From: a virus
Strand: one strand, 5' to 3'
DNA: 55,341 bases
Virus record (IMG/VR): IMGVR_UViG_3300032213_001903
Coordinates: 1 to 55,341 of that record
This document shows positions 31,303 to 34,646 of this stretch, one piece after another. How positions within the stretch are numbered: the stretch's first letter is position 1; each line of letters starts with the position of its first letter. The position numbers and the translations under genes were made by a program. The notes under the pieces are model-generated. The model saw only the letters and a list, made by a program, of their open reading frames with translations. It did no database searches and was not told the origin of the DNA.

Positions 31303-31331
31303 TTGACAATAAATCAAAACGGTAGTATACT
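31303..31331 (+). promoter_or_regulatory. Promoter of early-type family
   Basis: TTGACAATAAATC, 17-base spacer, TATACT, then ACATGTATTGA, the tail shared with promoters at 34575, 37472 and the 44-50 kb region. Confidence 0.8.
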
Positions 31332-31345
31332 ACATGTATTGAAAG

Positions 31346-31385
31346 TGATAAAGCAATCTTGCTTATCATTAAGGTTCTTTAAAAA
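31346..31385 (+). promoter_or_regulatory. rrn-like antitermination leader (hairpin + boxA)
   Basis: Hairpin TGATAA-AGCAA/TTGCTTATCA followed by GTTCTTTAAAAAA and then ATTGTCAGACTG, which closely resembles the boxA-boxC order of proteobacterial rRNA leaders. It lies just downstream of a promoter and before RNA genes. Confidence 0.6.
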
Positions 31386-31402
31386 ATTGTCAGACTGTTT
31401 CT

Positions 31403-31506
31403 AAGTGTGCTGTAGTATAGTGGGAAGTACGCAAGGGCCCTCACGATTCATATCGTACGGTGGGAATCGCCAGTGAAACGATGGTTCGACTCCATCTAGT
31501 ACACTT
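31403..31506 (+). ncRNA. tRNA-like RNA with extended anticodon hairpin
   Basis: Acceptor-like AAGTGTGCT/AGTACACTT, D-arm-like GTA-TAGTGGGAA-GTAC, T-arm GATGG-TTCGACT-CCATC. The middle is a long hairpin ACGAT-TCAT-ATCGT flanked by CCC/GGG. No CCA is encoded. 104 nt. Could be a tRNA with insertion or another mimic. Confidence 0.45.
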
Positions 31507-31515
31507 AAAAACAGT

Positions 31516-31544
31516 TTGACAATAAATGCACTTGGTGCTATACT
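31516..31544 (+). promoter_or_regulatory. Promoter of early-type family
   Basis: TTGACAATAAATG, 17-base spacer, TATACT. Confidence 0.78.
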
Positions 31545-31554
31545 ATGTGCATAC

Positions 31555-31583
31555 GCTGAGAAATCAGCAAGTTCTTTAAAAAA
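31555..31583 (+). promoter_or_regulatory. rrn-like antitermination leader (hairpin + boxA)
   Basis: GCTGA-GAAA-TCAGC hairpin, then GTTCTTTAAAAAA. Nearly identical to the one at 34617. Confidence 0.6.
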
Positions 31584-31620
31584 TTAATTTTGTATAGTCC
31601 CTGTTTAAGTTACAGGGTAC

Positions 31621-31730
31621 TATATGTAAACACATTGTTATGCAGCACAGCCGAATCTGTGTGTAACTCCTAGGCGTAACCTATTATGAGAAATAGGGGA
31701 GTGCTATTCTCATCAGTGTGTTTTCATATA
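31621..31730 (+). ncRNA. Structured RNA before tRNA-Glu
   Basis: Closing stem TATATG-AAACACA (31621-31634) with TGTGTTT-CATATA (31717-31730). CCTATT/AAATAGG lies inside. An alternative hairpin TATAGT-CCCTGT/ACAGGG-ACTATA precedes and competes with it. Ends 7 bases before tRNA-Glu. Unassigned. Confidence 0.5.
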
Positions 31731-31737
31731 GTAATTT

Positions 31738-31812
31738 GCTCGGTTCGTCTATTGGTTAGGACGCTGGCCTTTCACGCCGGAAAGAGGGGTTCAATTCCCC
31801 TACCGAGTACCA
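31738..31812 (+). tRNA. tRNA-Glu (TTC)
   Basis: Arm CTGGC-CTTTCAC-GCCGG; acceptor GCTCGGT/ACCGAGT; encoded CCA. Confidence 0.93.
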
Positions 31813-31818
31813 AGTAAT

Positions 31819-31868
31819 AGGGAGAGTCGCTGCGAAGCGTATTCTTAAACGACCCGTAGAACTCCCGG
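31819..31868 (+). ncRNA. Compact structured RNA after tRNA-Glu
   Basis: GGGAG/CTCCC encloses GTCG/CGAC, which encloses CGCT-GCGA-AGCG (GNRA loop). About 50 nt, between a tRNA and an HNH gene. Unassigned. Confidence 0.35.
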
Positions 31869-31894
31869 GCGTCCCCAAGTAAGTTTTTGGTGAC

Positions 31895-32374
31895 ATGACA
31901 GATTTCAAATCTTACTTACAAATGATAAATACATTTAGGAGTAAGATTGTGAAACAAAACCATACTAACAAATTTACGGATGCTGATTTAATAGCACAAT
32001 ACAAGTTAACACCCACTTTAAGTAAACTTTCTCATTTTTTTAATGTACCTGATGTAACAGTCTGGCGCAGAGCAAAAAAATTAGGATTAGAATTTAAGAT
32101 AGGTGGTGCTAATGCTAAAATGCCTTTATCAGAGATTTTAGAAGGAAAGCATCCACAATATCAAAGTAATAAATTAAAAAACAGACTTATTAATGAAGGT
32201 ATAAAAGAAAATAAATGCGAAGAATGTGGTATTACTGAATATCAAGGTAAGCCTTTAGTGATGCAGTTAGATCACATAGACGGTAATACACATAATCATT
32301 TATACAGTAATTTAAAACTACTATGTCCAAACTGTCATTCTCAGACAGTAACATGGTGTGGTAAAAACAAATAA
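31895..32374 (+). CDS. HNH endonuclease with N-terminal DNA-binding region
   Basis: 159 residues. The N-terminal half has an HTH-like segment (TLSKLSHFFNVPDVTVWRRAKKLGLE). The C-terminal HNH is CEECGITEYQGKPLVMQLDHIDGNTHNHLYSNLKLLCPNCHSQT. No strong SD at the given ATG; an internal ATG (residue 10) is possible. It ends 2 bases before tRNA-Tyr. Likely a homing-type nuclease in the array. Confidence 0.85.
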   Translation: MTDFKSYLQMINTFRSKIVKQNHTNKFTDADLIAQYKLTPTLSKLSHFFNVPDVTVWRRAKKLGLEFKIGGANAKMPLSEILEGKHPQYQSNKLKNRLINEGIKENKCEECGITEYQGKPLVMQLDHIDGNTHNHLYSNLKLLCPNCHSQTVTWCGKNK

Positions 32375-32376
32375 TT

Positions 32377-33091: not shown

Positions 33092-33119
33092 TTCATTTTT
33101 TAAGTTAAAATATAATATT

Positions 33120-33211
33120 GGAGATGTGGCCGAGTGGCCGAAGGCAGCAGGTTGCTAACCTGTCGTGTTTAGTAATAAGCACCGTGAGTTCGAATCTCAC
33201 CGTCTCCACCA
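33120..33211 (+). tRNA. tRNA-Ser (GCT)
   Basis: 92 nt with long variable arm; arm CAGGT-TGCTA-ACCTG; acceptor GGAGATG/CGTCTCC; encoded CCA. Confidence 0.93.
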
Positions 33212-33520
33212 ATAACAATAAGTCCCGGCTATGCTTGTTGTCACGGTCCCTAGTGATTAGCAGCACACTTTGGTCGAGGCGGGTGTAAGTCCCGTCAACA
33301 AAAAATATGCGAGTGATAGCGGACTACGCATACGGACATCTAGGCTTGAGGACTGTCGTCCGATATCAAAAGACAATATGTTGCTAGTTTAGGGACTAGC
33401 GCCATATTTTAACACATTTCTGTCTTATACGGGGTTTCAGGTTCCACGATAGGTATGCCAGAACGAGAATAGACTTGCAATGAAATACTCGGGGTAACAT
33501 ACTAATACTTACAGACGACA
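33212..33520 (+). ncRNA. Large structured RNA region, module 1
   Basis: No ORF. Visible helices: TTGTTG/CAACAA (33235-33301) with a T-arm-like CGGG-TGTAAGT-CCCG inside, TATGCG/CGCATA (33306-33332), CGGAC/GTCCG (33333-33362), and GCTAG/CTAGC near 33390. It starts directly after a tRNA CCA. Size and ornate folding recall the GOLLD/ROOL kind of phage RNAs next to tRNAs, but identity is not shown. Confidence 0.45.
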
Positions 33521-33549
33521 TTGACAATCGTTTGGGAGTGTGTTAAAAT
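33521..33549 (+). promoter_or_regulatory. Sigma70-like promoter
   Basis: TTGACA, 17 bases, TAAAAT, about 16 bases before the structured module at 33565. Confidence 0.65.
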
Positions 33550-33564
33550 ATGGTAAATTATTTG

Positions 33565-33705
33565 TTGAGGACCTGTGAGCAAAGTGCCTAACCAGCAGCC
33601 TGACTCTTAAGGTATATACCAACCCTGCCCTACTATTCACTATGGTGGTGAAAGCAATTCAGGGGGCCATTTTATTAGGTCTTAAACAGACAAGAGTGTC
33701 CTCAA
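33565..33705 (+). ncRNA. Structured RNA, module 2, with own promoter
   Basis: Closing stem TTGAGGAC (33565-33572) with GTCCTCAA (33698-33705). Inside: GGTATATACC, TTCAC/GTGAA, and CCTGA/TCAGG-like pairings. 141 nt, promoter-proximal, ends 19 bases before the next gene, so it may be a leader or a separate RNA. Confidence 0.5.
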
Positions 33706-33723
33706 TAAATAAATTTTTATAAA

Positions 33724-34191
33724 ATGAAAAAAATAATCATAACATTTATTATCAGCATAACTTCTATTGCCCATGCTTGTTCAGGATACATCATAGGTTT
33801 TAGAGGTAAGGATAATCAATTTGATCAACAGGCATTTAATTTATATGCTGATAGAGTTGGGTATTGTAGTAATGCTTACAACTGGCAGCAAGATAAAGAT
33901 GCAATTAAGTTAATCAAAACTCTATCAGTTCCATATCAATTATATGGATACAGTCAAGGTGCAGTTACTGTTGCTAATTTGTTAAAAATTAAAGATTTAA
34001 CTAAGCCTGAGTTTGTGATAACAATAGGTGCGTATAGAACAACTGATGTTAATTTTGATAGATATAAAATTAAATATATCAATTATTTTGACAATAGTGG
34101 TAAGGGGCAACGAAGCCCAGGAATATTTCTGAATGTACCTCATAATGAGATACAACGAGAAGTAAATAATTTTTTTAATAAAGGAGATTGA
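33724..34191 (+). CDS. Exported alpha/beta-hydrolase-like protein
   Basis: 155 residues. Signal peptide MKKIIITFIISITSIAHA then Cys. GYSQGA at residues ~79-84 is a G-x-S-x-G nucleophile elbow, and a late HNE could give the His. The family resembles small lipase/cutinase-type hydrolases. Location inside a tRNA array is odd. No clear SD; a structured RNA precedes it. Role might be envelope or host-surface modification. Confidence 0.65.
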   Translation: MKKIIITFIISITSIAHACSGYIIGFRGKDNQFDQQAFNLYADRVGYCSNAYNWQQDKDAIKLIKTLSVPYQLYGYSQGAVTVANLLKIKDLTKPEFVITIGAYRTTDVNFDRYKIKYINYFDNSGKGQRSPGIFLNVPHNEIQREVNNFFNKGD

Positions 34192-34272
34192 CATGAAACC
34201 TGGTAAACGGTAAGTGTCATCTTAGATTCTGTATGGTCTAGGGTGGCACTATAAACAATATAGTACAATTCA

Positions 34273-34348
34273 CCCTGATTGGCGTTAACGGTAGCGTACC
34301 GGACTCTTAATCCGAGAGGTGTAGGTTCGAATCCTACATCAGGGACCA
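34273..34348 (+). tRNA. tRNA-Lys (CTT)
   Basis: Loop CTCTTAA; acceptor CCCTGAT/ATCAGGG; encoded CCA. Confidence 0.9.
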
Positions 34349-34351
34349 TAT

Positions 34352-34428
34352 GGAAGTATAGCTCAACTGGCTAGAGCAACCGGCTTTTAACCGGTAGGTT
34401 CAGGGTTCAAGTCCCTGTGCTTCTACCA
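34352..34428 (+). tRNA. tRNA-Lys (TTT)
   Basis: Arm ACCGG-CTTTTAA-CCGGT; acceptor GGAAGTA/TGCTTCT; encoded CCA. Confidence 0.92.
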
Positions 34429-34550
34429 TATAAAAACATTCTCGACGGAGCAAGTGCCGCGCATAAATTGCGGTAACTGCATCGGTGGCCCTGGCAGGCT
34501 GCGAAAATCTATTGTGCCAGCAGTAGAGAATTATCAAGAGTGTTTCTATA
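34429..34550 (+). ncRNA. Structured RNA abutting tRNA-Lys
   Basis: TATA-AAAACA (34429-34438) pairs with TGTTTCTATA (34541-34550) around ATTCTC/GAGAAT. Inside CCGC/GCGG and TGGCA/TGCCA hairpins. The first base is directly after the tRNA CCA. Unassigned. Confidence 0.5.
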
Positions 34551-34574
34551 TGGTAAATAACAAATAAAAAGTAG

Positions 34575-34603
34575 TTGACAATAAATCAAGATACATATAC
34601 AAT
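34575..34603 (+). promoter_or_regulatory. Promoter of early-type family
   Basis: TTGACAATAAATC, 17-base spacer, TACAAT, then ACATGTATTG. Confidence 0.8.
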
Positions 34604-34616
34604 ACATGTATTGTGA

Positions 34617-34646
34617 CGCTGAGAAATCAGCGATGTTCTTTAAAAA
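34617..34646 (+). promoter_or_regulatory. rrn-like antitermination leader (hairpin + boxA)
   Basis: CGCTGA-GAAA-TCAGCG hairpin then GTTCTTTAAAAA, between a promoter and tRNA-Leu; third copy of this arrangement. Confidence 0.62.

Follow-up and report, generated by a model that had tools for sequence, protein, structure and literature searches.

What signals govern the transcription of a long transfer RNA (tRNA) array in a phage, and are they those of bacterial ribosomal RNA (rRNA, rrn) operons? The question is raised by IMG/VR virus record IMGVR_UViG_3300032213_001903, a 55,341-base stretch of DNA analysed whole and hereafter called the window, in which 32 tRNA genes called by ARAGORN, all on the + strand, lie between 26.7 and 36.7 kilobases (kb). 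A sequence-only reading had proposed that three promoters in this array, each followed by a hairpin and then by the antitermination element boxA, are rrn-like leaders that drive the array. We found a cis-element that is conserved, specific to tRNA arrays and identical with that of rrn leaders. Judged from its sequence, it is likely to represent rrn-type antitermination leaders at promoters inside a phage tRNA array, recruiting host NusB-S10.

Three promoter-hairpin-boxA leaders inside the array

The 12-mer GTTCTTTAAAAA occurs exactly three times in the window, always on the + strand and inside the array, and not once on the − strand. These copies are the window's only matches to the published boxA consensus GYTCTTTAANA. 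The order sigma-70 promoter, hairpin, boxA is present at all three, as had been read from the sequence (boxA at 31374, 31571 and 34635), and so are the two near-identical GCTGA-GAAA-TCAGC hairpins (31555-31568 and 34617-34632).

31303-31331, + strand: promoter 1, TTGACA-17-TATACT, 11/12 consensus
31344-31370, + strand: hairpin 1, at the boxB position, eleven pairs with one bulge, -9.0 kcal/mol
31374-31385, + strand: boxA copy 1, GTTCTTTAAAAA, consensus match
31516-31544, + strand: promoter 2, TTGACA-17-TATACT
31555-31568, + strand: hairpin 2, GCTGA-GAAA-TCAGC, GNRA tetraloop, -7.1 kcal/mol
31571-31582, + strand: boxA copy 2, exact GTTCTTTAAAAA
34575-34603, + strand: promoter 3, TTGACA-17-TACAAT
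34617-34632, + strand: hairpin 3, CGCTGA-GAAA-TCAGCG, -9.1 kcal/mol
34635-34646, + strand: boxA copy 3, exact GTTCTTTAAAAA, 19 nucleotides ahead of tRNA-Leu (34666-34752)

Each promoter matches 11 of the 12 sigma-70 consensus positions, with a 17-nucleotide spacer, and in the window boxA stands only behind promoters, none being found ahead of other tRNAs. First-order random windows held on average 0.045 exact boxA copies on both strands, and none of 400 had either three copies or a promoter with boxA. Together with a reversed-boxA control in IMG/VR, in which none of the 22 matches lies near tRNAs, this rejects a chance origin of the three copies.

Taken singly, the hairpins are only mildly unusual in stability (z -1.5 to -2.4), and the support for them comes from comparative evidence. 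For hairpin 1, a similar long stem is found in relatives L629, L641 and L663, with both arms changed. Hairpins 2 and 3, both listed as terminator-like by a scan, were rejected as intrinsic terminators, since GUUCUUUA and A-runs follow them, with no U-run.

As for the claim that the leaders drive the array, they do lie inside it ahead of its tRNAs, but they do not start it. The array begins near 26.7 kb, and since at least four further strong TTGACA promoters (25994, 30013, 30751 and 33521) have no boxA, the boxA leaders are internal starts of the array rather than its beginning. An Rfam search of the window matched tRNAs only; the array contains no rRNA.

Recurrence and conservation in IMG/VR

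Scanning IMG/VR for a promoter followed after 15-45 nucleotides by GTTCTTTAAAAA gave at least 125 matches. Among the promoter-boxA matches listed, 94 of 125 have same-strand tRNA genes nearby, at least three of them in 85 cases; tRNA-Glu very often comes first, about 16 nucleotides downstream of boxA. The runs downstream of the leaders have a median length of 3.0 kb and 11 tRNAs. When GYTCTTTAACAA was used instead, 25 of 121 matches were near tRNAs and many others were in prophage-like contigs. Such contigs (L150, L151, L161, L198, L218, L256, L259 and others) carry promoter-hairpin-GCTCTTTAACAA leaders away from tRNAs, which suggests that some protein-coding operons of phages have nut-like leaders in the rrn order.

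In these first scans boxA was part of the search pattern. A boxA-blind scan required only a promoter and the hairpin GTTAAGMAATTAAC and, run to completion, returned 113 stretches. Among the 71 distinct tRNA-associated elements, 54 carry boxA at no more than two mismatches (32 exactly), compared with 0/71 for shuffled flanks and 1/16 for elements without tRNAs. With a second hairpin seed, TTGAGAAATCAA, boxA was present in 39 of 59 among the matches listed, which may include loci first found by boxA. Variation in boxA is concentrated at positions 2 (T/C) and 10 (A/C), precisely where the published consensus is degenerate (Y and N; PMC5725501), and E. coli leader boxA GCTCTTTAACAA and spacer boxA GCTCTTTAAAAA differ at position 10. 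It is mostly confined to tolerated positions, the exceptions being T5A in 8 of 96 phage sites and a few others. C4 is kept in 92/96 sites and T6 in 96/96, the two positions whose joint mutation abolishes SuhB recruitment (PMC5725501).

The hairpin was assessed on a MAFFT alignment of 65 leaders, a set anchored on a single GNRA having been dropped as a biased sample. Its sequence varies while its pairing is kept, four of the five pairs showing changes on both sides. These two-sided changes fill 59 cells against 21.8 in shuffles, a value reached by none of 500 shuffles; the stem scores 11.8 against 6.2 +/- 0.34 in shuffled spacers, and the signal collapses when the pairing is slid along the alignment. 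The resulting covariance model recovers all three window copies, including copy 1, which is outside the training set (E 0.0012); hairpin 2 is a member of the model's own alignment.

Related and cultured phages

Nearest relatives were found through the RNA-binding-protein gene beside the array (75-94% identity), and at 27 loci the sequence extends 7.7 kb or more upstream; two of those counted, L597 and L599, are near-identical. A boxA-type site is present in the array, outside evident coding sequence, at 12 of these loci, and at 11 it lies behind a recognisable promoter. The 27 loci have 21 forward boxA-like sites (two apparently coding), none on the reverse strand and one in the reversed control. 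Conservation of boxA among the nearest relatives is partial: it was seen in these 12 and not shown in the others, where its absence is not proven since arrays often extend past the flank.

Ten large records (130-367 kb) were chosen for a promoter-boxA match, and the model scored eight of them, usually once per record. The cultured Xanthomonas jumbo phage XacN1 (AP018399.1) has one promoter-boxA locus per terminal repeat, in which a promoter and a hairpin-capable spacer lead to GTTCTTTAACAA; 2.4 kb with no annotated genes separate this boxA from tRNA-Gly, Leu and Glu, after which the array continues. Its genome paper makes no mention of promoters or boxA (PMC5852040). The 2.4-kb stretch right after the boxA leader (AP018399.1 355438-357847) possibly holds unannotated structured RNAs. 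Cultured phages contain no near DNA relative of the window's array beyond about 1% of array length, and none that is convincing for the leader.

Relation to bacterial rrn leaders

The exact phage 12-mer serves as leader boxA of 16S, about 110-170 nucleotides ahead of the gene, in no fewer than 118 bacterial stretches, most of them from Beta- and Gammaproteobacteria. When the phage-built model was run on rrn loci, it gave full-length alignments of -10, hairpin and boxA for leaders of Gayadomonas, Aromatoleum, Nitrosomonas and Zoogloea, with weak E-values (0.014-0.1) at loci chosen for boxA. On 213 kb of control loci it gave one match up to E 1, at GTTCTTTAACAA of phage GAP32.

In 148 bacterial genomes, promoter-boxA leads into 16S in nine of the ten matches with at least 200 nucleotides downstream. 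The other nine matches end at contig ends, most with GTGTGGG-type sequence where enough remains. No promoter-boxA stands ahead of a tRNA in these 148 genomes, and an origin from a host tRNA operon was rejected on that ground. What follows in bacteria is 16S and never a tRNA, so the same arrangement that marks rrn operons there marks tRNA arrays in these phages.

A second leader form

In relatives, a second form has boxA often just 7-8 nucleotides after the -10, where it would be the predicted transcript 5' end (+1). A scan for this form found 75 of 88 distinct elements near tRNAs, the tRNA mostly 15-19 nucleotides past boxA. In both forms boxA is 15-19 nucleotides ahead of the first tRNA in most cases, while its distance from the promoter ranges from about 7 to 40 nucleotides. 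Since a hairpin-less form exists, the hairpin is not required.

boxC and the structured RNAs around the leaders

The sequence-only reading had also taken TCAGACTG after copy 1 for boxC, wrongly: E. coli boxC is UCUGUGUGGG (PMC10250234), and in E. coli rrnB TCAGAC lies within the boxA-boxC linker. The boxC sequence is missing after boxA at all three window copies. A boxC in copy 1 was rejected, TCAGACTGTTT there pairing with the 3' flank of the RNA element that follows:

31386-31400, + strand: 5' arm of a long helix, containing TCAGACTG; its partner is 31509-31523 and it encloses a tRNA-like RNA
31402-31507, + strand: tRNA-like RNA, not called by ARAGORN, with acceptor-type stem, T-arm GATGGTTCGACTCCATC and extra hairpins
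31509-31523, + strand: 3' arm of the enclosing helix, overlapping the -35 of promoter 2
31590-31736, + strand: structured non-coding RNA between boxA copy 2 and tRNA-Glu (31738-31812), z -4.4

At copy 1, ATTGTCAGACTGTTT enters a 15-nucleotide pairing (31386-31400 with 31509-31523), and 31386-31525 folds at -52.1 kcal/mol (z -5.5). In its position the helix can be compared with the leader-trailer duplex of rRNA, but in sequence it is not boxC. In L006 and L019 the tRNA-like insert is absent and the two helix flanks are directly adjacent.

Three structured RNAs of the window (31590-31736, 33405-33554 and 34427-34558) share a CATATA..AAACA / TGTTT..TATATG closing helix (z -2.3 to -4.5) and have no match in Rfam. 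A similar RNA starts after boxA in L039, L057, L061, L082 and L097.

Other features of the array

Genes for a fatty-acid desaturase and HNH endonucleases are inserted inside the tRNA array (34914-35669, 30175-30735 and 31895-32374). The -10 regions of several array promoters (31326-31341, 34598-34613 and 37495-37510) continue into a common ACATGTATTG, and at two of them there is a CAATACATGTATTG palindrome, possibly an operator.

Elements bounded by TTTAGGAT..TTCAGCAA and ATCCTGTT lie at 28300-28365, 28378-28500, 29455-29565, 37517-37700 and 37987-38045, and also at 26812. Some enclose circularly permuted tRNA parts, with the T-arm ahead of the D-arm (e.g., 28420-28490), and they may resemble Y RNAs with a tRNA-like module. 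Near them, gene 38045-39496 is assigned to phrog_850, "RNA-binding protein" (DUF2828/DUF7788). Ro/TROVE proteins have been reported in jumbo phages (PMC7824862).

Weighing the explanations

Since parts of these arrays carry the same boxA signal as bacterial rRNA genes, many large tRNA-array phages probably borrow the host rRNA antitermination machinery for their own untranslated RNA. In the proposed mechanism, host sigma-70 polymerase would initiate at the leader promoter, and the nascent RNA would expose boxA, which a small hairpin with a GNRA loop usually precedes. Host NusB-S10 would bind boxA, and a Nus complex (NusA, NusG and SuhB) would assemble on the polymerase, so that it would resist Rho through the kilobases of tRNAs and structured, untranslated RNAs that lie ahead; the complex may also aid folding or processing of the array RNAs. 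In rrn, boxA is necessary and sufficient for factor recruitment (PMC10250234). It is bound by NusB-S10, and counteracting Rho in vitro requires both boxA and NusB (PMC6614801). NusB-S10 binding, antitermination and a benefit to the phage would follow from the boxA identity and this literature (PMC5725501, PMC10250234, PMC6614801). No phage-encoded NusB was found in 10 records, so NusB would come from the host. The array RNA, several kilobases long and largely untranslated, would face Rho, and this exposure, the role of boxA in rrn and the lack of a phage NusB together make host Nus recruitment the best-supported model.

The main rival is processing near the tRNA 5' end, because the distance between boxA and the tRNA is constant (mostly 15-19 nucleotides) while that to the promoter is not (about 7-40). 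The AU-rich 12-mer would then be a processing or loading element of the adjacent tRNA, for example an entry site for ribonuclease (RNase) E or another ribonuclease, or a spacer helping RNase P, its match to boxA arising from shared processing needs. Single-stranded AU-rich RNA is indeed a typical RNase E substrate, but mere AU-richness would not fix a 12-mer, let alone one whose degenerate positions match the NusB-S10 boxA consensus with C4 and T6 kept. Nor would processing account for boxA in the window standing behind promoters and before no other tRNA, or for the same promoter-boxA arrangement marking rrn in bacteria, and we regard this explanation as unlikely. Somewhat less probable still is a nut site whose GNRA hairpin would be the target of a phage N-like protein, boxA being a co-site. 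A GNRA-type-loop hairpin kept by compensatory change is reminiscent of lambda boxB, and mEp021 encodes an N-like protein, Gp17, with three nut sites (PMC11893012). However, the hairpin-boxA order is that of rrn and the reverse of lambda nut (PMC6614801), one leader form lacks the hairpin, and the hairpin also occurs without boxA; no N-like gene was recognised among the proteins scanned, which did not include every open reading frame, such proteins being too divergent to exclude. That the leader is a functionless relic captured from a host rrn operon would explain why boxA and layout are identical with host rrn leaders, but boxA is kept while its flanks diverge, the hairpin covaries, and sites are on the array strand only (21 forward against 0 reverse in the relatives' arrays), making this very improbable.

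Several observations weigh against rrn-type antitermination leaders. Within the flank read, only 12 of the 27 nearest-relative loci have boxA, and no promoter-boxA match was found in ten further cultured phages (T4, nt-1, GAP32, phiW-14, DLP6, Ci1, BUCT-ZZ01, MD18, Milchi and BF). In the second form boxA is at the predicted +1, unlike in rrn. Among the hairpin leaders, 15 of 71 lack boxA at up to three mismatches, and Y-RNA-like elements can also have this hairpin ahead of them with no boxA, so that it has some further role; with the hairpin-less form, this makes hairpin and boxA separable. The reading of rrn-type leaders on a phage tRNA array is upheld by the tRNA association, covariation, boxA-blind conservation, rrn identity and XacN1, but hairpin-then-boxA is not an invariant order.

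Known systems and implications

The leaders resemble the rrn P2 leader (boxB-boxA-boxC; E. coli rrnB, Zoogloea) in having a promoter, a short 5' hairpin and boxA about 25-45 nucleotides after the -10, and, like Proteobacteria rrn leaders, they precede a long untranslated structured RNA and use an exact 12-mer common to many Beta- and Gammaproteobacteria. They differ in that tRNAs or structured RNAs follow within about 20 nucleotides, whereas 16S follows rrn boxA at about 110-180, and in their lack of boxC, other hairpin sequence, internal position and absence of downstream rRNA. With lambda-type nut sites (lambda, mEp021) they share a phage RNA, boxA with a GNRA-type-loop hairpin and presumed use of host Nus factors; the order here is hairpin-boxA rather than boxA-boxB (PMC6614801), and the transcripts are tRNA and non-coding RNA, not early mRNA operons. 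As in the leaders of suhB and other bacterial mRNAs, a boxA consensus occurs outside rRNA, but the one at suhB acts to repress translation and promote termination by Rho (PMC5725501). The XacN1 tRNA region (PMC5852040) likewise has a phage array, promoter, hairpin-capable spacer and boxA GTTCTTTAACAA before its 2.4-kb stretch, and differs from the window in its AACAA variant and single locus per terminal repeat.

That boxA occurs outside rRNA, in lambdoid phages and bacterial mRNA leaders, is already known, and the survey of mRNA-leader boxA left out non-coding RNAs and phages (PMC5725501). A literature search with most subscription journals outside its scope found no report of boxA or rrn-type leaders on phage or bacterial tRNA arrays. 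Since promoter-boxA is a near-exclusive rrn signature in the bacteria searched, its placement on the tRNA arrays of phages clearly mimics a host signal. More tentatively, the host's rRNA-specific transcription complex could serve a broad class of phages as dedicated machinery for arrays of tRNA and non-coding RNA, also by way of the leader form with boxA at the 5' end.

Until now, Nus-factor antitermination has been seen as serving rRNA and lambdoid mRNA. If our interpretation is true, the Nus complex would have a second class of natural substrates in these arrays, and NusB, S10 and SuhB would be diverted from ribosome synthesis during infection. The roles of boxB and boxC would become addressable through natural variants (hairpin-less, boxC-less or with boxA at +1). 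It would also explain how phage transcripts that go untranslated for kilobases avoid Rho, and would extend Nus-factor action beyond rRNA to the co-transcriptional folding and processing of tRNAs.

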